Virus record (IMG/VR): IMGVR_UViG_3300031658_000129 | Coordinates: 1-23,805 of that record | Source: a virus | Reading direction: 5' to 3' (one strand) | Length of the DNA: 23,805 nucleotides | Shown here: in pieces, positions 4,249 to 12,768 of the stretch | How the letters are laid out: each line of letters starts with the position of its first letter | Numbering within the stretch: position 1 is the first letter of the stretch | Made by a program: the position numbers and the translations under genes | The notes under the pieces: model-generated | Seen by the model: only the letters and a program-made list of their open reading frames with translations | What the model was told of the DNA's origin: nothing | Databases searched by the model: none

Positions 4249-5906
4249 AGCTCATCTCCGTCAAAGGCATCATAGTTATCACCGTCATCTACTTCTTTAA
4301 GTCTGCCTGTTACTGAGTCGTAGTGTAGGCTACAAGCCAGTCCAACATCACCAGTGTATCTTGACTTCAGTACCCTGACCTTAGTGGTCGAAGCCTCTAC
4401 CTCGTCATCTGATTGTTGGTTGCGCTCTAATCCTATAACACAATCGCTTAGCTGAGCAATAGATTGTGAACCTCTAAGGTGTGAGAGTCCGGTTTCGATA
4501 CCGTTCTCATGTCCCTTGTTACCTTCTACCCTACGGAGGTGAGACACAAGTATCAAGCCAGCACCTGTCTCTTCTACAAGAGAGCGGAGTCGATGCATGA
4601 TACCATCAATAGCTTTGCGCTCATCGCCTTCCAAGGCTTGAAGAACTAGCATGTGAAGGTGGTCAACTACAACCCACTTACAATCTAAACCTACAATCAA
4701 GTAGCGCAGCTTGCTGAAGATGTCTTCTAGGTTGTTGACACCAAGGTGAGCATGAATCCAAACCCGACCCTCGTTCTCTCCCATGAAGACCTTGCGGTAA
4801 TACTGTTCGAGCTTCTCGTCACCTATCTGATTCTTAACACTGTCTAGGTGCAGCTTAGAGTTAGCTTCAACAGCCATGATACCTTCAGCAGTTCGCATCC
4901 AGTTCTCTTCAAGAGCCACGATGCCTACGTTATCTTTGGTGTTGTTGATGAGCCAGTGAGAAAGCTCTCTAGTTACAGAAGACTTACCTAGTCCAGTGCC
5001 GCCGGTAAGAGTAATCAACTCGCCAGCTCTCAGGCCTTCTAGCTTATGGTTAAGCCCAGCCCAAGGGTATGGAATGGACGGCAGCTTCTCTGAACGTAAC
5101 CGCTTGTATTCGTCTAGCTGAGTAGACAAGTTCATAATCCCTGAAGGGGTGTAGACCTTAGCATCCCAGAAACAATTAACAAAGGAGGAATGCTTGCGCT
5201 CTTTGAGCATATCGTTAGGGTCTTTGAATCCCTCGGGCAGTGTCATCAGCTTAGCTTTGTTGGGGGTGAGGAGCTTAGCAATTGCTTTAGCTCCGTCCTT
5301 GCCCACTGCATCGCTATCGAAACAGATGACTACAGTCTCGAATGATTCAAGAAACTCTAGGCTATTCTTAACATCACGAGCACCTCCTTGTGCTCCAGAC
5401 TTTATACTTACAACAGGCCACTTACTTCCGAGTAGTTCGTATGCCGCCATAGCGTCACACTCTCCCTCTACGATTGTAATAAACTTACCGCCTGATTTAA
5501 AGAGCTGCTCTCCGAACAACCCTGTTTCTTTAGAATCACCCTTCCAAGCAAACTGCTTGTTGAGCTTTCTAACTTTCGTTGCTACTTCCTCGCCCTTGTG
5601 GAAGTAGGGGTAGTGGTGGCTGGTAACCTGACCGTTGAGAGTAGTAGACTTAACGCCATACTTTTTGGCTGTCTCGATACTAATCTGTCGGTCAGTTAGG
5701 GCATTAAAACTAGAGCCACTACCGGCTCCTTGATACGCTGTGAAGTCCGTTACGGTATCTTGCTTAGGGGTTTGCACTTCCGTTGTGCCATAGTTTTTAA
5801 AATACTTGTTGCAGCTAAAGCAGTAAGCTGACCCGTCATCGTTCTGACTGACTGGGTCGCTGCCTCCACATGAATCACATGGGAGATGGAATTTAACAAA
5901 CGGCAT
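4245..5906 (-). CDS. T7 gp4-like bifunctional primase-helicase
   Basis: A 553-residue protein matching T7 gp4 (566 aa) along its whole length. The zinc ribbon uses Cys10, Cys13, Cys29 and Cys32. The TOPRIM primase has Glu147 (VEGECDA) and Asp197-Ser-Asp199. The RecA-like helicase has a Walker A GGTGLGKS (302-309), catalytic Glu333/334 (ALEENW), Walker B Asp415 (VVVDHLH), sensor His456 (VSHLRR) and a likely arginine finger Arg516 (KSRYTGD). It would unwind the fork as a ring and make primers for the polymerase. The C-terminus is acidic (DDGDNYDAFDGDEL), as in T7, but ends in Leu rather than the Phe that T7 gp4 uses to bind polymerase. No internal start resembling the short gp4B form is evident. 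GAGG lies 7 nt before the ATG. Confidence 0.97.
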   Translation of the reverse strand: MPFVKFHLPCDSCGGSDPVSQNDDGSAYCFSCNKYFKNYGTTEVQTPKQDTVTDFTAYQGAGSGSSFNALTDRQISIETAKKYGVKSTTLNGQVTSHHYPYFHKGEEVATKVRKLNKQFAWKGDSKETGLFGEQLFKSGGKFITIVEGECDAMAAYELLGSKWPVVSIKSGAQGGARDVKNSLEFLESFETVVICFDSDAVGKDGAKAIAKLLTPNKAKLMTLPEGFKDPNDMLKERKHSSFVNCFWDAKVYTPSGIMNLSTQLDEYKRLRSEKLPSIPYPWAGLNHKLEGLRAGELITLTGGTGLGKSSVTRELSHWLINNTKDNVGIVALEENWMRTAEGIMAVEANSKLHLDSVKNQIGDEKLEQYYRKVFMGENEGRVWIHAHLGVNNLEDIFSKLRYLIVGLDCKWVVVDHLHMLVLQALEGDERKAIDGIMHRLRSLVEETGAGLILVSHLRRVEGNKGHENGIETGLSHLRGSQSIAQLSDCVIGLERNQQSDDEVEASTTKVRVLKSRYTGDVGLACSLHYDSVTGRLKEVDDGDNYDAFDGDEL

Positions 5907-7547: not shown

Positions 7548-8486
7548 CTATGCTGCCCTCTGAAAGTAATCTTGAATAATTGTTTGTCGTTTATTTCTGG
7601 TGGCTGCCATGTTCCCTGCTGCTGATTGTCTCTTAGTAATAGAGTGAGTAGACCAATCAGTCAGTGCATTGTAAAAAGCCCAGCGGTTTGCACCAAGTCG
7701 TCTTCGATATGTGTTCTGCCAAGTGACCCAGATATATTCTAGTGAGCTATTTACTCTGGGCATCTCGTCAAGAACTTGACCGGGGGTATAGTCCGGGTTG
7801 GTGTTGATAATCTTTAAGGCTGATGTGGCGTTGATAGCTTCAGCGGCTGCTGTAAATGCTTGGATGTCAGTCATTGCTTCGTTACTCCACTGGCTCCAAA
7901 GCTCTCTCTCGTTTTCAAACAAGTCCAGTGCCTTAGTGATAACCCTACCGCCCAGCTCAATGTTTAAGTGTCGAGTATGCTTAGCTTTAAACACAGCAAC
8001 CTCACCGGAAACAAACACCTGAAGATTAGTACAAGCTTGTTGTATAGCAGCGGCACTAATCATAAACGGCCATGTCCCATCAAAGCTTGACACTGCTAAC
8101 AGTCCAAGGGATGCAGTGTCACCGTCTGGTGTGGTAAAGGTATGGGCTGGTAGCTTATACTGTACAAAGGTTCGAGAGCCGTTGTGTGATGTCCTGATAG
8201 TCTCTTGAATCCCTGTTGTGTCTAAGTCAGACCTCTCAATGATAGCCCTTGTAACATCAATCATCTCATGAGGTGCAACTGCTTTGTAGTCTAAGCCATG
8301 AACACCAAGCTGTGCTCCAGTGTCTTCACGGTAGATTACTTTCTTAGTAGTAATAAGTACACCAGCTGCTTGAGTATGGTACTGGAGGATAGTTTCACCT
8401 ATCTCGAAGCCTGCCTCGCCGTAGCCACTACGCTTTAGCTCTGTCATATCTGATGTGTTTCTAAACATATTTACAATAGCATTCAT
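7548..8486 (-). CDS. DUF932 domain protein
   Basis: A 312-residue protein resembling the DUF932 (TIGR03299-like) phage and plasmid family. Residues about 60-75 (GVHGLDYKAVAPHEMIDV), the central SSFDGTWPFMI segment and the AVFKAKHTRHLNIELGG region follow the family pattern. That pattern is a regulator-like N-terminal half, then an 'S-x-DG' strand, and an Arg/His-rich helix. Family members occur widely in phages and mobile elements, and no enzymatic role is established. The C-terminal third contains aromatic and basic segments (WQNTYRRRLGANRWAFYNAL) that could bind nucleic acid. GGAG lies 9 nt before the ATG. A 40-codon zinc-ribbon gene ends 2 nt upstream of its start, so both belong to one early transcript. 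Confidence 0.75.
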   Translation of the reverse strand: MNAIVNMFRNTSDMTELKRSGYGEAGFEIGETILQYHTQAAGVLITTKKVIYREDTGAQLGVHGLDYKAVAPHEMIDVTRAIIERSDLDTTGIQETIRTSHNGSRTFVQYKLPAHTFTTPDGDTASLGLLAVSSFDGTWPFMISAAAIQQACTNLQVFVSGEVAVFKAKHTRHLNIELGGRVITKALDLFENERELWSQWSNEAMTDIQAFTAAAEAINATSALKIINTNPDYTPGQVLDEMPRVNSSLEYIWVTWQNTYRRRLGANRWAFYNALTDWSTHSITKRQSAAGNMAATRNKRQTIIQDYFQRAA

Positions 8487-8487
8487 A

Positions 8488-8610
8488 TCAATCTTCTCCT
8501 AAGCAAGTTGCACATTGACCACTATCGTAGCCATTATTAATAGATTCACCACAGCTGAAACACTCATAGGTGGCCTCACTGTCAGTGTAGAGTTTAGCCT
8601 GTTCTATCAT
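8488..8610 (-). CDS. 40-aa zinc-ribbon micro-protein
   Basis: A 40-residue protein starting at the ATG at 8608-8610. It has two Cys-x2-Cys knuckles, Cys17/Cys20 in YECFSCGE and Cys33/Cys36 in GQCATCLGED, separated by 12 residues. This is the layout of a minimal zinc ribbon. AGGGG lies 8 nt before the ATG. The ATG overlaps the stop of the preceding gene by 4 nt (ATGA). Small phage zinc ribbons can bind RNA polymerase, ribosomal components or DNA, but no target can be assigned. It is followed 1 nt later by the DUF932 gene. Confidence 0.75.
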   Translation of the reverse strand: MIEQAKLYTDSEATYECFSCGESINNGYDSGQCATCLGED

Positions 8611-8864
8611 GCTACAATCCCCTCGGCTCCGTTAATGTCTTTGATGTTCTTAAAGCTAATGCTTCGAGAGCTACCATGTTGTAGATAGAACGCCCACTTA
8701 TAACAGTGGAAGATGTTGAAGCAGTCGCCCTTACTGACCTCGAAGCGGTTCTTAATTGTTCTACGTCTTACAATAAAAGACTTACCAAATACTGTACCAT
8801 TTTTCTTACCGCTAAAGACTGCTGAGTGTGTAGCTTTTGCGACTAAGTTGAATAAAGTTTCCAT
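8607..8864 (-). CDS. Hypothetical 85-aa protein
   Basis: I do not recognise this 85-residue basic protein. It has a hydrophobic-to-polar N-terminus (METLFNLVAKATHSAVFSGK) and a Arg/Lys-rich strand (SFIVRRRTIKNRFEVSKGD). An aromatic segment with two cysteines and a His (CFNIFHCYKWAFYLQHG) and a short tail follow. No membrane segment or clear enzyme motif is seen. Its basic and aromatic character would suit nucleic-acid binding, which is only a guess. An AGG-type Shine-Dalgarno lies about 9 nt before the ATG. Upstream are a plus-strand promoter-like sequence and the first of the three large hairpins, so its mRNA may begin at a processed 5' end. Confidence 0.7.
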   Translation of the reverse strand: METLFNLVAKATHSAVFSGKKNGTVFGKSFIVRRRTIKNRFEVSKGDCFNIFHCYKWAFYLQHGSSRSISFKNIKDINGAEGIVA

Positions 8865-8904: not shown

Positions 8905-8933
8905 TTGACAGCCGACACCGACCCTGTTACAAT
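8905..8933 (+). promoter_or_regulatory. Rightward (antisense) sigma70-like promoter
   Basis: On the plus strand a perfect TTGACA (8905-8910) and TACAAT (8928-8933) are separated by exactly 17 bases. Transcription would start near 8940 and run into the hairpin at 8929-8996, then antisense to the leftward early genes. The -10 box overlaps the base of that hairpin. The match is one base short of consensus. Whether it is active, and why it faces against the operon, is unknown. Confidence 0.5.
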
Positions 8934-8996
8934 AACTTAATGTCTTATAAGTTAGTTCGTAAGAACTTACTAACTTATAAGTCATTAAGTAATTGT
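8929..8996. promoter_or_regulatory. Long hairpin, copy 1 of a shared-loop family
   Basis: An intergenic inverted repeat. Inner arms CTTATAAGTTAGT (8944-8956) and ACTAACTTATAAG (8969-8981) pair over 13 bp. ACTTAATG/CATTAAGT (8935-8942 with 8983-8990) adds 8 bp, and ACAAT/ATTGT adds 5 more, with single T-T and A-A mismatches between blocks. The 12-nt apex TCGTAAGAACTT matches copy 2. It can refold as AGTTC-GTAA-GAACT with a 4-nt bulge. It lies between 8864 and 9003, where the leftward early transcript would be uninterrupted. No U-tract follows on the minus strand, so it is more likely a processing or stability element than a terminator. Confidence 0.75.
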
Positions 8997-9002
8997 TCTT
9001 AT

Positions 9003-9164
9003 TTACTTGATTGTATTATACACTTGGTTATAAAGTTCAGTTGCAATATCATCTAGTGTTTCAACCATGTCCTCATCTGGATTAAAGTCTTTGTCTTTAG
9101 CTAAGAAGGCTACACTAGTGTTTAAGTCTGCTAATATGTTGAAGAAATCATCTTTATTGGACAT
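9003..9164 (-). CDS. 53-aa early protein
   Basis: A 53-residue acidic protein, MSNKDDFFNILADLNTSVAF onwards, starting at the ATG at 9162-9164 with AAGG 8 nt upstream. It is predicted to be two helices joined by a DFNPDED turn. There are no cysteines, no membrane segment and no recognised motif. The preceding gene stops 1 nt before its ATG, so the two are coupled. The hairpin at 8929-8996 follows 6 nt after its stop. It belongs to the run of tiny early genes whose products often modify host functions in phages, but no target can be suggested. Confidence 0.6.
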   Translation of the reverse strand: MSNKDDFFNILADLNTSVAFLAKDKDFNPDEDMVETLDDIATELYNQVYNTIK

Positions 9165-9165
9165 A

Positions 9166-9357
9166 TTATTTACCTTTTATTGATTTGTTTAGTGTGTTTT
9201 GCTGTATCATAGTAATTATGTAGGGCTTATCGCTATACATACGCCCTACTTTGTGAGCATCTTCTAAACTAAAGCTAAAACTAGGGGTATCAAACTCTCC
9301 AAGCCAGTCAACACGCCATAAAACATTGCCTTCTTCAATTATATCTGAGCTTTTCAT
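9166..9357 (-). CDS. 63-aa early protein
   Basis: A 63-residue protein starting MKSSDIIEEGNVLWRVDWLG and ending in a basic tail (LNKSIKGK). The middle (SFSLEDAHKVGRMYSDKPYI) looks like an alpha-beta mini-domain, with a strand, a helix and a strand ending in YIITMIQ. I chose the ATG at 9355-9357 because GAGG and AGGA lie 9 and 4 nt upstream. The in-frame ATG at 9370-9372 has no Shine-Dalgarno. The start overlaps the preceding gene by 23 nt. No family is recognised. Confidence 0.6.
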   Translation of the reverse strand: MKSSDIIEEGNVLWRVDWLGEFDTPSFSFSLEDAHKVGRMYSDKPYIITMIQQNTLNKSIKGK

Positions 9358-9499
9358 GTCGTCCTGCCTCATCTAAGTAACCGATTAGTTCTTTAAGTGG
9401 TATAAGTTCTAGCAAATCATAGAGCGGCTGGCCTTCGCCGTCCCTCATATCTTTCCATACCTGCTCCATAGCAGCTAACACCGCCTCGTCTTTAGTCAT
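9335..9499 (-). CDS. 54-aa early protein
   Basis: A 54-residue, mostly helical protein, MTKDEAVLAAMEQVWKDMRD onwards, with a Leu-rich second half (YDLLELIPLKELIGYLDE). The start at 9497-9499 overlaps the end of the preceding gene by 8 nt. An upstream in-frame ATG at 9538 would lie deep inside that gene. The Shine-Dalgarno is weak (GAG 8 nt upstream), consistent with coupled translation. The Leu-rich helix pattern (L-x-x-vP-x-x-x-L-x-x-YL) is seen in other small phage proteins, but I cannot name a family. Confidence 0.6.
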   Translation of the reverse strand: MTKDEAVLAAMEQVWKDMRDGEGQPLYDLLELIPLKELIGYLDEAGRHEKLRYN

Positions 9500-9719
9500 G
9501 ATGCAATCTCGCTTTAGTCTTATCCATCCAAGCTTCAAAGCTACGGCGGTGTATCTGTTTATACTTACCGCCGCCTAGCTTAATAACTTTTTGTATATAG
9601 TGATAGGTCTTTAGCCCCTCCATTGCCTTGTTTAAGTCAGGCTCCATAGTGAAGCACCAGATATGTTCGGCACAAGTCTCTTTAAATTCTTCTTCAGTTG
9701 GTAAGTCTTCTTTATTCAT
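9492..9719 (-). CDS. 75-aa early protein
   Basis: A 75-residue helical protein starting MNKEDLPTEEEFKETCAEH. It has an aromatic stretch (IWCFTMEPDLNKAMEGLKTY), a Gly-rich turn (KLGGGKYKQIHRRSF) and a basic C-terminus (MDKTKARLHHD). It has two cysteines but no zinc-binding arrangement. The start overlaps the preceding gene's stop by 4 nt (ATGA), so translation is coupled; the GGAG box is 11 nt upstream, which is long. No family or function is recognised. Confidence 0.65.
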   Translation of the reverse strand: MNKEDLPTEEEFKETCAEHIWCFTMEPDLNKAMEGLKTYHYIQKVIKLGGGKYKQIHRRSFEAWMDKTKARLHHD

Positions 9720-9892
9720 GGCGTTACTATCTCCAAGTCTTCAAGCTCCAAGCCTTCACTTGAGTAGCTACAGTCATACCCTTCAGACCTGTATAGTTTT
9801 ATATAACCCTCTTCGTTTAATTCTTCGTTGCCGTCTTCGTCAAAACGATAGAACAGCATATCATAGACTGCAATTGTATATTCTTTACTCAT
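9716..9892 (-). CDS. 58-aa acidic early protein
   Basis: A 58-residue, strongly acidic protein, MSKEYTIAVYDMLFYRFDED onwards, starting at the ATG at 9890-9892 with GGAG 7 nt upstream. It is Glu/Asp- and Tyr-rich with alternating strands, and reads like a small beta-sheet protein. The high negative charge could allow DNA mimicry or binding to a basic host protein. That is a speculation based only on composition. It begins 2 nt after the stop of the HhH-like gene and overlaps the next gene by 4 nt. Confidence 0.65.
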   Translation of the reverse strand: MSKEYTIAVYDMLFYRFDEDGNEELNEEGYIKLYRSEGYDCSYSSEGLELEDLEIVTP

Positions 9893-9894
9893 AG

Positions 9895-10509
9895 TTATTC
9901 TCCAGTCAAATAAGTATAGTGTACTTCGCTTACATGGTTACCATCTTGCCACCGCTTAGACTTGCTAGCTAAGAACTCACACCATGAATCCCAGAGATTC
10001 TCACAGCCATAGTCTTCACACAGTTCTATGTAGTTCCATATTTTAATCTCATTAGCTCGGCTGGCCTTGTCTGTCTTAGGGTTCGGGTTAAGTTTAAAGT
10101 CTTTAGCATTTAAGTTATACATTCTAATGTTGTGAACATCCATACAGCCAACCAGCCCAGCAATCAACTGACAGCAGAACCCGGCCTTTGGTATACCTAA
10201 GCCGTCAACCCTTAGAAAGATTATCATTAAGCTATAAGCTTTCTCGTTGTCAGACTTACTAGAGTTAAGCACTGCCTTGACCTGAGAAAACATCATATGT
10301 TTATTGGACATAAGGTACTCATAAGTCTTTATCTTGTTACCCCATAAGAACCTAGACTCTAGCTTGTTAGCTCTTACATCAGCTATCTGGTCACCAACAC
10401 CAAGCCAATTCTGTTGAATGCTCAGAGCTACCATCAATATAGTGTCTCCAAAGTTATCGGCATTACGCTGTGAATATTCTTGTACTGCTTTGCAATGAGT
10501 ATTGAACAT
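9895..10509 (-). CDS. Conserved phage protein with HhH-GPD-like core
   Basis: A 204-residue protein, the largest of the early cluster. Its middle, FLRVDGLGIPKAGFCCQLIA then GLVGCMDVHNIRMYNL, has the shape of a helix-hairpin-helix followed by an Asp. This is as in HhH-GPD DNA glycosylases, whose pattern is L-x-G-x-G-x-K-A ... x-D-x-H. Similar segments (GLG-x-x-KAGF-x-x-QL ... GC-x-D-x-HN) occur in uncharacterised phage proteins. The catalytic Lys of bifunctional glycosylases is not evident. Base excision or base recognition is possible but unproven. I chose the ATG at 10507-10509, two codons inside the first ATG, because GAGG lies 8 nt upstream of it and only 2 nt from the first. A large hairpin lies just upstream. 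Confidence 0.7.
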   Translation of the reverse strand: MFNTHCKAVQEYSQRNADNFGDTILMVALSIQQNWLGVGDQIADVRANKLESRFLWGNKIKTYEYLMSNKHMMFSQVKAVLNSSKSDNEKAYSLMIIFLRVDGLGIPKAGFCCQLIAGLVGCMDVHNIRMYNLNAKDFKLNPNPKTDKASRANEIKIWNYIELCEDYGCENLWDSWCEFLASKSKRWQDGNHVSEVHYTYLTGE

Positions 10510-10531
10510 CGGCATTTCCTCGGTGGTGGTT

Positions 10532-10605
10532 TACCCTACAACTGAATGTCTTTTAAGTTAGTTCGTAAGAACTCACTAACTTAAAAGTCATTAAGTAGTA
10601 GGGTA
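10532..10605. promoter_or_regulatory. Long hairpin, copy 2 of the shared-loop family
   Basis: An intergenic inverted repeat with inner 13-bp arms CTTTTAAGTTAGT (10550-10562) and ACTAACTTAAAAG (10575-10587). Outer pairing continues through CTGAATG/CATTAAG with one mismatch, and then TACCCTAC/GTAGGGTA. The 12-nt apex TCGTAAGAACTC differs from copy 1 only in the last base. Compared with copy 1, one inner A-T pair has become T-A on both arms, and the outermost stem has wholly different but still paired bases. It fills the gap between the genes ending at 10614 and starting at 10509, without a U-tract, so an RNA processing role is favoured over termination. Confidence 0.75.
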
Positions 10606-10613
10606 TATATTAA

Positions 10614-10880
10614 TTATTTAAACCATTTAATCTGTTGGGCTAGTTTGGCATCCCATAAATCTAACGCCTCTTTAACTGTTAGGTCATAGTGACCCCAGAA
10701 TATATCCATCTGGCCTCCCTCATCTCCCCAACTATGTAACATATATTCACCTTCAGGTCTAAAGTTATTCTCTGTTTTAGGTCGATGGCTAATACAGATT
10801 CGTAGTATACCACAAGAACTTATAAGCTTAGCATCTAAACGTGACTGTAAAGTCTTTTCTAGTTCATTTGAAGTGTTCAT
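10614..10880 (-). CDS. Hypothetical 88-aa early protein
   Basis: An 88-residue protein that I do not recognise. It has a helical N-terminus (ELEKTLQSRLDAKLISSC), a basic strand (ILRICISHRPKTENNF) and a Trp-rich segment (YMLHSWGDEGGQMDIFWGHY). A helix (TVKEALDLWDAKLAQQIKWF) follows. The mixed alpha-beta pattern suggests a small folded domain. The start overlaps the stop of a 29-codon membrane-peptide gene by 4 nt (ATGA), so it is coupled to it; GAGG is 10 nt upstream. The hairpin copy 2 begins 9 nt after its stop. Confidence 0.65.
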   Translation of the reverse strand: MNTSNELEKTLQSRLDAKLISSCGILRICISHRPKTENNFRPEGEYMLHSWGDEGGQMDIFWGHYDLTVKEALDLWDAKLAQQIKWFK

Positions 10881-10966
10881 ATATCATCATCCTCTCTTTC
10901 ACTATATTTAAAGAGCAACACTGTTACCGCTGCAACTAGACAGATTGTAAACAAATCAGCTAACAT
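10877..10966 (-). CDS. 29-aa single-pass membrane peptide
   Basis: A 29-residue peptide starting MLADLFTICLVAAVTVLLFK and ending in a charged tail (YSEREDDDI). Residues 5-19 form one hydrophobic segment. A strong GGAGG lies 6 nt before the ATG at 10964-10966. The stop overlaps the next ATG by 4 nt. The strong ribosome binding site and coupling argue that this very short gene is real. The preceding gene stops 1 nt before its ATG. It is likely a small inner-membrane peptide; function unknown. Confidence 0.65.
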   Translation of the reverse strand: MLADLFTICLVAAVTVLLFKYSEREDDDI

Positions 10967-10967
10967 T

Positions 10968-11129
10968 CTATACCTCCACTTCTATTTCTTGTAAGCTTTC
11001 AAGGTCAACATCCTCGGAGGGATAGATATTAACCTCGTTATAATTCTCTAGCAAACTAGATGCTACGTCTCTAGCAATGTCTAAGTCTTCACATATAATT
11101 CTATTGCCATCAAATATAATATTAAACAT
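10968..11129 (-). CDS. 53-aa acidic early protein
   Basis: A 53-residue acidic protein, MFNIIFDGNRIICEDLDIAR onwards, ending EIEVEV. It reads as strand-helix-strand with a helix around DVASSLLENYNEV. GAGG lies 9 nt before the ATG at 11127-11129, and the start overlaps the preceding gene by 8 nt. No motif is recognised. It sits in the part of the early operon nearest the promoter, among genes with similar GAGG-type ribosome binding sites. Confidence 0.6.
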   Translation of the reverse strand: MFNIIFDGNRIICEDLDIARDVASSLLENYNEVNIYPSEDVDLESLQEIEVEV

Positions 11130-11292
11130 TCTCTGTCGCCTCTTTTTTGTTAACCATCTTACAAGCTAAGTTCCAAGCCATAATAGCACCCATCCAAGCT
11201 GCTGCCTTCTCACTACCGGAATAGCTTTCTATTCTATCTTCTAAGTCTTTCATATCTTCTGGGGTCACAAAAGCAGGGACTGATTTAATCAT
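11122..11292 (-). CDS. 56-aa early protein
   Basis: A 56-residue protein, MIKSVPAFVTPEDMKDLEDR onwards. It has an acidic first helix and then a hydrophobic second helix (AAAWMGAIMAWNLACKMV) that is amphipathic rather than clearly transmembrane. GAGG lies 9 nt before the ATG at 11290-11292, in the context GAGGTATAAAATT. The following gene begins 8 nt before its stop, and the preceding gene ends 4 nt before its start. No family is recognised. Confidence 0.6.
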   Translation of the reverse strand: MIKSVPAFVTPEDMKDLEDRIESYSGSEKAAAWMGAIMAWNLACKMVNKKEATENV

Positions 11293-11296
11293 AATT

Positions 11297-11476
11297 TTAT
11301 ACCTCGTAGCAGTTAGAAACAGTAGACCAGTCTATACTATGCAATACTTCTTCGCAATAGTATAGATGTTTATGCACAACTATTGTACCATCATCCCATT
11401 CTATACAAACTTTATCACGAAATGAAACATCAGGAAACATTCTTGCCCATATATAACTATCATCAAAGTCTTGCAT
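11297..11476 (-). CDS. 59-aa early protein
   Basis: A 59-residue protein starting MQDFDDSYIWARMFPDVSFR. It is acidic and aromatic with three cysteines, reading as a small beta-rich domain (KVCIEWDDGTIVVHKHLYYC). I use the ATG at 11474-11476, which has GAGG 9 nt upstream in the context GAGGTATAGATTT, almost the same leader as the next gene. A longer version would need a TTG at 11491 inside that ribosome binding site. It is the second gene after the main leftward promoter. Function unknown. Confidence 0.6.
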   Translation of the reverse strand: MQDFDDSYIWARMFPDVSFRDKVCIEWDDGTIVVHKHLYYCEEVLHSIDWSTVSNCYEV

Positions 11477-11531
11477 AAATCTATACCTCAAAAATTAATA
11501 GAATTTAACTGGCCGTCCTTGGCCGATAGAA

Positions 11532-11960
11532 TTACTTGGCAGAAAGAATCTCAAGGATTTTATCCATCTTTGCTTCTAGCGAATCAACACGGCTTGTAAG
11601 AGCTTCTTTTTTCGCAGTAGCCGTTGCTATTGCCTTTGCTGTAACCTTCGGAGCCTTCGGAGCAGCTTTAGCTTTCTTGAAAGCCTTTGTCTTCTTTGTT
11701 GGTTTCTTGCCGGTAATCATCAGCAGGAACTGTTCTGGGACACATTCCCATTCTCTGAATTCAGAGACATCGCCATGAGTCATAAAGCTATCGGCATCGC
11801 TGTAATACTTCTTGATAACGGCATTGAAAACCTTGGTCAATCCATATCTCTCCGTAGGAGAAGCAGCATGGATATTGGCAAAGTGACAAGCAACGCCGTA
11901 GGTTTGACGGTCTGTTGCAATGTTGTTGACATCGATGTTTTTGAAGTTTGAAGTCAGCAT
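11532..11960 (-). CDS. First early protein: unknown domain, Lys/Ala tail, coiled coil
   Basis: A 142-residue protein, the first gene behind the leftward promoter. Residues 1-80 form an unrecognised domain (aromatic, with TDRQTYGVACHFANIHAAS and a Trp-Glu-Cys segment). Residues 84-118 are Lys/Ala/Pro-rich with repeated KKAKAAPKAPK-like units, resembling histone-H1-like tails. Residues 119-142 form a short coiled coil (LTSRVDSLEAKMDKILEIL). The tail suggests nucleic-acid contact, and the coiled coil suggests oligomerisation. Both are inferences from composition. AAGGA lies 8 nt before the ATG, but it sits inside the stem of the hairpin at 11964-12030. Translation may therefore depend on opening or cutting that structure. 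Confidence 0.8.
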   Translation of the reverse strand: MLTSNFKNIDVNNIATDRQTYGVACHFANIHAASPTERYGLTKVFNAVIKKYYSDADSFMTHGDVSEFREWECVPEQFLLMITGKKPTKKTKAFKKAKAAPKAPKVTAKAIATATAKKEALTSRVDSLEAKMDKILEILSAK

Positions 11961-11963
11961 ATT

Positions 11964-12030
11964 AGTATTCCTTATTAAAAAATGAAGAAGTTCGTAGAAC
12001 TCTCTTCTTCATTTTTAAATAAGGAATACT
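11964..12030. promoter_or_regulatory. Long hairpin, copy 3, masking a ribosome binding site
   Basis: Arms GTATTCCTTATT.AAAAATGAAGAAG (left, from 11965) and its complement (12004-12029) pair over about 26 bp with a single A-A mismatch, 11977 against 12017. The apex TTCGTAGAACTCT shares the AGTTCGTA-GAACTC core of copies 1 and 2, and can form AGTTC-GTA-GAACT with a 4-nt bulge (CTCT). On the minus-strand RNA, the AAGGA Shine-Dalgarno of the first early gene (11969-11973) is paired within this stem, 8 nt from its ATG. Confidence 0.8.
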
Positions 12031-12032
12031 TA

Positions 12033-12073
12033 TTAGTAACCCTATAAGCTTTTATAGCTTATAGGGTTACTAA
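12033..12073. promoter_or_regulatory. Perfect 18-bp hairpin in early leader
   Basis: Arms TTAGTAACCCTATAAGCT (12033-12050) and their exact complement (12056-12073) enclose a 5-nt loop, TTTAT. It lies 2 nt from copy 3. Neither strand shows the run of U residues expected of an intrinsic terminator. On the leftward RNA it would form immediately before the copy 3 hairpin. It may stabilise the 5' end of a processed transcript or guide folding of its neighbour; this is inferred from position. Confidence 0.75.
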
Positions 12074-12083
12074 AAATCTGGAC

Positions 12084-12594
12084 AAATTCCTATCGGAATT
12101 TCCATGCAGGCGATAGAACTAGAGAGACTTTAAAAGTCTCAGGAGGGAGAAATAGACGAAGTCTAAAAAGCTGGTAAGTCGTTGAAAAGATTGGAAGTCT
12201 CTGGAGTAAATCTATAGATTTAAAAACATTTTAACATCTCCCTAGTTTTGTAAACTAGAAAGCTGGGACTGAACCTTAAAGACTTTAAAAGTCTTCTATG
12301 CATGTGATGTCTGCATAGCGGGCGTTGAGATTCTATGGAATCTCTGGAGATTTTTAAAGACTCTCTGGAGTCTTTAGGGGGTGGGCAAGCTGCCATGGGG
12401 GGGTACTGGGATATATATACAATCACATACATTTTATGGAGATATGCCATGTAAACCAGATAGCGCCGCAGCTTTAAAAGGCTTTAAAGGGAAGGGCAAG
12501 GGATGGGAAGTCGGGCGACCTCCAAGGTCTTTAAAGGGAGAGGGTTTATAAACTGCGGGATATGTAAGCATGAACCTAAACCTGTATTACATAT
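12084..12594. other. Non-coding array of small perfect hairpins (early leader)
   Basis: This stretch has no credible gene. It contains successive perfect stem-loops: 12084-12101 (AAATTCC stem), 12124-12140 (GAGACT), 12153-12165 (TAGAC), 12207-12222 (TAAATC), 12242-12258 (CTAGTTT), 12279-12295 (AAGACT), 12296-12318 (CTATGCA), 12327-12344 (GAGATTC), 12355-12376 (TAAAGACTC), 12517-12529 (GACCT) and 12560-12594 (ATATGTAA). The 15-mer AGACTTTAAAAGTCT occurs at 12125 and 12280. The 9-mer TCTCTGGAG occurs at 12198, 12341 and 12362. All would lie in the leftward transcript between its start near 12614 and the first early gene. Function unknown. Confidence 0.7.
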
Positions 12595-12620
12595 GCTATA
12601 ACCCCGGGGGCTTAATATCT

Positions 12621-12649
12621 ATTATACCCGTAGAATGAGCATCTGTCAA
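12621..12649 (-). promoter_or_regulatory. Main leftward early promoter
   Basis: On the minus strand a perfect TTGACA (12644-12649) and a perfect TATAAT (12621-12626) are separated by 17 bases, a full sigma70 consensus. Transcription would begin near 12614 and run left through the hairpin array. The flanks AAATAACTTGACA and TACGGGTATA are shared with the rightward promoter. This should be recognised directly by host RNA polymerase on DNA entry. Confidence 0.85.
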
Positions 12650-12725
12650 GTTATTTCTTGTTTATTTGCTGATATGTTACTGTATATACTATAAAGAGCT
12701 TTATATACTATTATATATGAAAATA

Positions 12726-12741
12726 AGTTATAAATAACTTG
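12726..12741. promoter_or_regulatory. Palindrome overlapping the rightward -35 box
   Basis: AAGTTAT and ATAACTT flank a 2-base centre and form a perfect inverted repeat that runs into the TTGACA of the rightward promoter. The ATAACTT half also precedes the -35 box of the leftward promoter. It could be an operator for a phage or host regulator, or simply an AT-rich promoter upstream element. No regulator gene is visible in the window. Confidence 0.4.
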
Positions 12742-12768
12742 ACAAGAGGCTATATTACGGGTATACTA
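12740..12768 (+). promoter_or_regulatory. Main rightward promoter for packaging and structural genes
   Basis: A perfect TTGACA (12740-12745) and TATACT (12763-12768) are separated by 17 bases. Transcription would start near 12775, giving a leader of about 30 nt before the TerS ATG at 12806. It shares AAATAACTTGACA and TACGGGTATA with the leftward promoter, which faces away from it. Its -10 box is one base off consensus. Confidence 0.85.

Follow-up and report, generated by a model that had tools for sequence, protein, structure and literature searches.

The window, meaning the whole 23,805-nt stretch of DNA analysed here, is a 23.8-kb genome fragment from a phage similar to the HMO-2011-type podophages, with T7-like replication genes in its left-pointing arm and head and packaging genes in its right-pointing arm. 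A covariance-model search recovered, on the minus strand, the three long hairpins noted in a preliminary description of this DNA. Of the 32 distinct copies that went into the model, R1, one belongs to the family of copy 1; the E values are given with the features of the early operon.

7548-8486, minus strand: DUF932-type gene (phrog_1221), downstream of the hairpin cluster
8607-8864, minus strand: gene of 85 aa, downstream of copy 1, with its start codon 64 nt beyond the foot
8905-8933, plus strand: rightward promoter TTGACA-17-TACAAT, whose -10 element overlaps the left foot of copy 1
8929-8996, minus strand: hairpin copy 1 (E=1e-11), between genes 9003-9164 and 8607-8864
9895-10515, minus strand: gene of 206 aa, downstream of copy 2, with its ribosome site just beyond the stem foot
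10532-10605, minus strand: hairpin copy 2 (E=3.7e-12), between genes 10614-10880 and 9895-10515
11532-11960, minus strand: gene of 142 aa, first of the early operon, lying downstream of copy 3 and without a PHROG match
11964-12030, minus strand: hairpin copy 3 (E=1.3e-6), leader hairpin of gene 11532-11960
12033-12073, minus strand: second leader hairpin with an 18-bp perfect stem and 5-nt loop, immediately preceding copy 3 on the mRNA
12621-12649, minus strand: leftward promoter TTGACA-17-TATAAT of the early operon, matching the consensus at 12/12 positions, upstream of all three hairpins
12739-12767, plus strand: rightward sigma-70-type promoter, a near-perfect consensus match

The three hairpins of the preliminary description are real. 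Only four hairpins in the window had a stem score of at least 16, namely copies 1–3 and the second leader hairpin, and each of 20 dinucleotide shuffles of the window contained none with such a score and none as long. Read in the sense direction of the leftward mRNA, the order of elements is stem, GTRA bulge on the 5′ side, GTTC, TTAC or TAC, GAAC and stem. The stem of copy 1 has 26 positions (8929-8954 with 8971-8996), mismatched at positions 12 and 21, with the bulge at 8967-8970 and the apex GTTCTTACGAAC at 8955-8966. Copy 2 has 29 stem positions (10532-10560 with 10577-10605), a GTGA bulge at 10573-10576 and its apex at 10561-10572, and its foot lies about 17 nt from the start codon of gene 9895-10515. 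Copy 3 has 26 stem positions (11964-11989 with 12005-12030), a GAGA bulge at 12001-12004 and the apex GTTCTACGAAC at 11990-12000, with a 3-nt loop. The shared apex AGTTCGTA(A)GAACT is as first described for all three copies, as are the matched A-T to T-A swap and the unrelated yet paired outer stems that distinguish copies 1 and 2. The one-sided 4-nt bulge is also present, but the register given for it, TACT/CACT, has to be replaced by TYAC, which holds family-wide on the plus strand. All hairpins had been placed in gaps of a leftward early operon; this is correct for copies 1 and 2, whereas copy 3 is part of the first gene's 5′ leader. A leftward transcript across all three agrees with the perfect sigma-70-type promoter that points over them.

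The two divergent early promoters (12620-12768) lie within a 67-nt imperfect inverted repeat that is 70 % complementary, which suggests a shared operator. Between them and the leader hairpins, at 12080-12600, lies a leader or intergenic stretch of about 500 nt that has no clear gene and is rich in short inverted repeats of the AAAGTCT/AGACTTT type. Three relatives (L028, L012 and L031) have long hairpins at the matching position, and the same three have a tandem hairpin of different sequence at the place of 12033-12073.

The rightward promoter at copy 1 is also found in relatives. About 16 distinct relatives retain TTGACA-17/18-TAYAAT with little variation in its distance to the apex; the spacer sequence changes. 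RNA from this promoter would be antisense to the early operon and would start inside the hairpin of copy 1. This opposite-strand promoter goes beyond the preliminary description, as do the scale of the family, its second apex class and the sequestered ribosome site at copy 3.

The apex was found to be kept in relatives across IMG/VR contigs, which disposes of the objection that it might lack conservation. On the mRNA strand, class A, which has the tip known from the window, reads stem, GURA bulge, GUUC, UUAC loop, GAAC, stem. Its tip recurs in at least about 100 IMG/VR contigs, and the exact core of copies 1 and 2 is present in 45 IMG/VR stretches; the apex alone occurs in at least 119 stretches, where some matches are due to chance, and the class A counts are lower bounds. 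True copies were separated from chance matches by stem score, chance matches clustering at 0–4 and true copies mostly scoring 8–27. A scan for the form with a 3-nt loop returned apparently mostly chance matches, and low-scoring sites often have such a loop. A structure-only search of class A loci revealed class B (stem, UAGAG, UAUC, UURC, GAUA, stem), in which the UAGAG bulge accompanies the UAUC/GAUA mini-stem. Class B is present in 73 stretches, and some phages carry both classes, even at neighbouring gene junctions. A rarer class C has the form GCUUUC-UUU-GAAAGC with a 5′ bulge.

The apex is invariant at 12 columns, whereas every stem position is variable. Below the bulge, the folded stem has a median length of 17 bp in both classes, to which the mini-stem adds 4 bp, giving about two helical turns. 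Some stems are short (9–11 bp), many are defective after about 9 bp, and position 10 is mismatched in half of the class B stems. Around position 4648 in L013, one hairpin combines, across the apex, an arm of one stem family with an arm of another, a hybrid that could reflect either recombination within the apex or an assembly chimera. Two further contigs carry many hairpins of other types with a 5′ surplus of 3–4 nt, namely CTCTCTCT-TTATG-AGAGAG in L075 and CTACTACTAC-TTAT-GTAGTAG in L058.

The preliminary description had reported covariation within one genome. The compensatory changes it noted are present, but three copies alone are thin evidence and are superseded by the family-wide data. 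These come from representatives whose stems are dissimilar, 32 of class A and 33 of class B. Both sides of the pair change at 12/12 tested stem pairs in class A and 11/12 in class B, and 93 % of stem cells are paired, compared with 61 % (class A) and 71 % (class B) after shuffling. The covariation score was 0.78 for class A and 0.63 for class B, against about 0.17, and collapsed once the stem partners were slid. Among sense-strand mismatches there were 40 G.U and 5 A.C, with 29 contigs favouring G.U and three the reverse; counting each local context once gave 24 against 4, and in all of these counts relatedness among contigs is only partly removed. In each of 18 long contigs, the class A copies are all on one strand. 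The excess of G.U over A.C on the sense strand together with this single orientation shows, as firmly as comparison of sequences can, that selection acts on the sense-strand RNA.

The position of the hairpins relative to genes was determined on contigs that are mostly fragments, with gene starts from a simple caller. A Shine-Dalgarno sequence and start codon follow the 3′ foot in 71/90 and 58/75 copies, compared with 9/90 and 6/75 in the antisense control. The median distance from the 3′ foot to the start codon is about 20 nt, and the stop codon of the upstream gene lies about 10 nt ahead of the 5′ foot. In G016, most of the larger early-gene gaps hold one such hairpin, and in several of these the outer stem itself supplies the stop codon. 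A sigma-70 promoter was considered as a further part of the module and rejected, TTGACA being found upstream in just 15/90 and 10/75 copies and at varying distance.

The leader slot occupied by copy 3 was compared using homologues of the first gene (142 aa) in related contigs, which gave 15 distinct leader sequences. All 15 have a long hairpin whose end lies close to the start codon or a few bases ahead of it. In the window, AAGGAA (11968-11973) in the 3′ arm of copy 3 is the Shine-Dalgarno sequence of gene 11532-11960, and most of the 15 leaders likewise hold an AAGG-type ribosome site inside the 3′ arm. The apex varies in this slot (class A, GUUCAGAAUGAAC, GCUCUUUGAGC, GUCACUUGUGAC and others), with the long stem and usually the 5′ bulge kept; in the leader of L033 the tip carries two small hairpins. 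A duplex this long over the ribosome site should block translation unless it is opened.

We consider the hairpins to be candidate RNase III-type processing sites that split the early message, a reading to which we give a probability of about 0.5. It draws on the stem length, the position, the sense-strand selection and the locked leader, all of which fit a double-strand-specific endonuclease. The proposed element is an apex module, consisting of a 4–5-nt 5′ bulge, a 4-bp mini-stem and a 3–4-nt loop, set on a free-sequence stem of about 17 bp. Host RNase III would cut the resulting duplex of about 21 bp in the manner of T7 early mRNA, and the cut would divide the polycistronic message into gene units whose ends are defined and protected by hairpins. 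In the leader slot, a cut may also release the ribosome site enclosed by the 3′ arm and thereby permit translation of the first gene. PF14622 was searched for as a phage RNase III gene and was found in 0/18 hairpin-bearing contigs, which may be incomplete, against 8/14 in the control; a host enzyme must therefore be assumed. RNase III of the alphaproteobacterium Sinorhizobium meliloti has been assayed on T7 R1.1 as a model substrate (PMC6121014).

The apex is not explained by RNase III alone, because the bacterial enzyme needs no conserved loop; loop conservation in bacterial RNase III targets falls far short of that of the AGNN loop of Rnt1p (PMC8708148). The strict apex suggests an additional reader, which might be an antisense RNA or a protein of phage or host. 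A sequence-specific RNA-binding protein of phage or host could be that reader, regulating translation or processing of the downstream gene, with the stem merely presenting the apex and the two classes being two recognition variants. The 12 invariant columns above a wholly variable stem, the tie between bulge and mini-stem in class B and the placement just upstream of the ribosome site all agree with such a protein. Strict 20–21-base probes, which cover only some stem variants, found no copy in about 85,000 GTDB prokaryote genomes, and this fits a phage reader. No protein, however, was common to all hairpin phages and absent from those without hairpins. The genes shared are the replication module and DUF932; the DUF932 protein was rejected as the reader since it is encoded in 19/28 hairpin contigs yet also in HMO-2011 and CRP-1, which lack the hairpins. 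The leader slot keeps its hairpin while the apex varies, and nearly all stems are much longer than a binding site requires. As the main function, binding by a specific apex factor is possible, though we hold it to be rather unlikely.

RNase III-type processing and a specific apex-binding factor can coexist. Tentatively, and with some doubt, the apex may be seen as a phage-wide recognition code in two classes, sometimes alternating within one early operon, through which a factor would cut or translate each gene unit. In the clade of the window this factor could even be an antisense hairpin RNA, transcribed from the conserved rightward promoter at copy 1, with a GUAA loop that complements UUAC, the loop of copies 1 and 2.

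Passive hairpins that stabilize mRNA ends or insulate translation between neighbouring genes would need no dedicated reader, and the upstream stop at or near the 5′ foot and the Shine-Dalgarno sequence at the 3′ foot are what they would be expected to show. They leave the invariant apex, the fixed side of the bulge and the shared weak point near stem position 10 unexplained, and we regard this explanation as improbable.

A DNA-level element, such as a recombination junction or a mobile palindrome acting as cassette linker, is very improbable. Gene content around the hairpins is variable, the L013 hairpin looks as if recombined in the apex, and on the complementary strand the apex loops read GTA, GTAA or GTAT. 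For such an element the two mismatch classes should be equal, whereas G.U is in excess on the sense strand; the orientation to genes is fixed, pairing is kept in nearly all copies, and the L013 case could be a product of assembly. The GTA/GTAA loops also brought N4-like single-strand promoter hairpins and integron attC sites into consideration, and both were dropped because of the sense-strand G.U bias. Intrinsic terminators would likewise lie between genes, but a run of five T within 10 nt after the foot occurs in 0/180 copies and the stem GC content is merely 26–32 %, making this reading scarcely tenable.

The family appears to be a new structured RNA outside Rfam, with several copies per genome in many uncultured, mostly marine phages. 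No part of the window matched Rfam at gathering thresholds, and relaxed searches gave sub-threshold matches only, mostly to miRNA-like hairpins. Models R1 and R2 had no match in 18 isolate phage genomes, including HMO-2011, HTVC104P, HTVC115P, several CRP phages and T7, and the literature searched contained no description of the hairpin family. By these searches, a large family between the early genes of mostly marine uncultured phages has apparently gone undescribed. It offers a sequence-defined handle on how an early message is divided into separately controlled genes in phages without a detected RNA polymerase gene. A T7-type RNA polymerase as reader, or its promoter as the role of the hairpins, was set aside, PF00940 being found in 0/18 contigs, with the positive control likewise giving no match. 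The two covariance models could serve as annotation tools for early operons and gene starts in marine viromes, and the family poses the puzzle of an RNase III-like element with an invariant tip.

Several known systems resemble the family in part. T4-type promoter-stem-loop cassettes are repeated stem-loops at gene junctions in a variable early region, proposed to serve as recombination junctions or cassette linkers; most copies here are without a recognisable promoter of their own, and their apex is fixed. The RNase III site in the lambda N leader is a hairpin just upstream of the ribosome site of an early gene, where the cut permits translation, but it is a single site and does not belong to a family with a shared apex. 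The AGNN-tetraloop substrates of Rnt1p, the yeast RNase III, share the ruler-like plan of a conserved apex on a free-sequence stem; they differ in the loop, and no reading of loops is known for bacterial RNase III (PMC8708148).

The closest likeness is to the T7 early sites R0.3, R0.5, R1, R1.1 and R1.3, which were folded for comparison at what we take to be their RNase III cut positions. The cut of R1.1 is at 5887 (PMC8708148). In T7 as in the family described here, a long hairpin occupies a junction of early genes or the first leader and is closely followed by the next ribosome site; the upper part is conserved, and the lower stems vary in sequence yet remain paired. The T7 sites have an upper stem of about 9–10 bp (AAGGTC../..GGCCTT), a two-sided internal loop and a short lower stem. 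In the family, a mini-stem of 4 bp separates the loop from a bulge confined to the 5′ side, the free-sequence stem measures about 17 bp, there are two apex classes, and the phages have no detected T7-type RNA polymerase. The similarity to T7 RNase III sites that had been proposed for the window thus holds for the overall plan, but not for the bulge, which is one-sided on the 5′ side rather than a T7-like internal loop. Neither the R1.1-type upper-stem sequence nor the two-sided asymmetric internal loop was found in the family, while a long paired sense-strand hairpin in polycistronic early mRNA, between genes and upstream of a ribosome site, is common to both. Because that internal loop is lacking and cleavage is a prediction, we do not claim membership among the T7 sites; by analogy, the hairpins would work like them.
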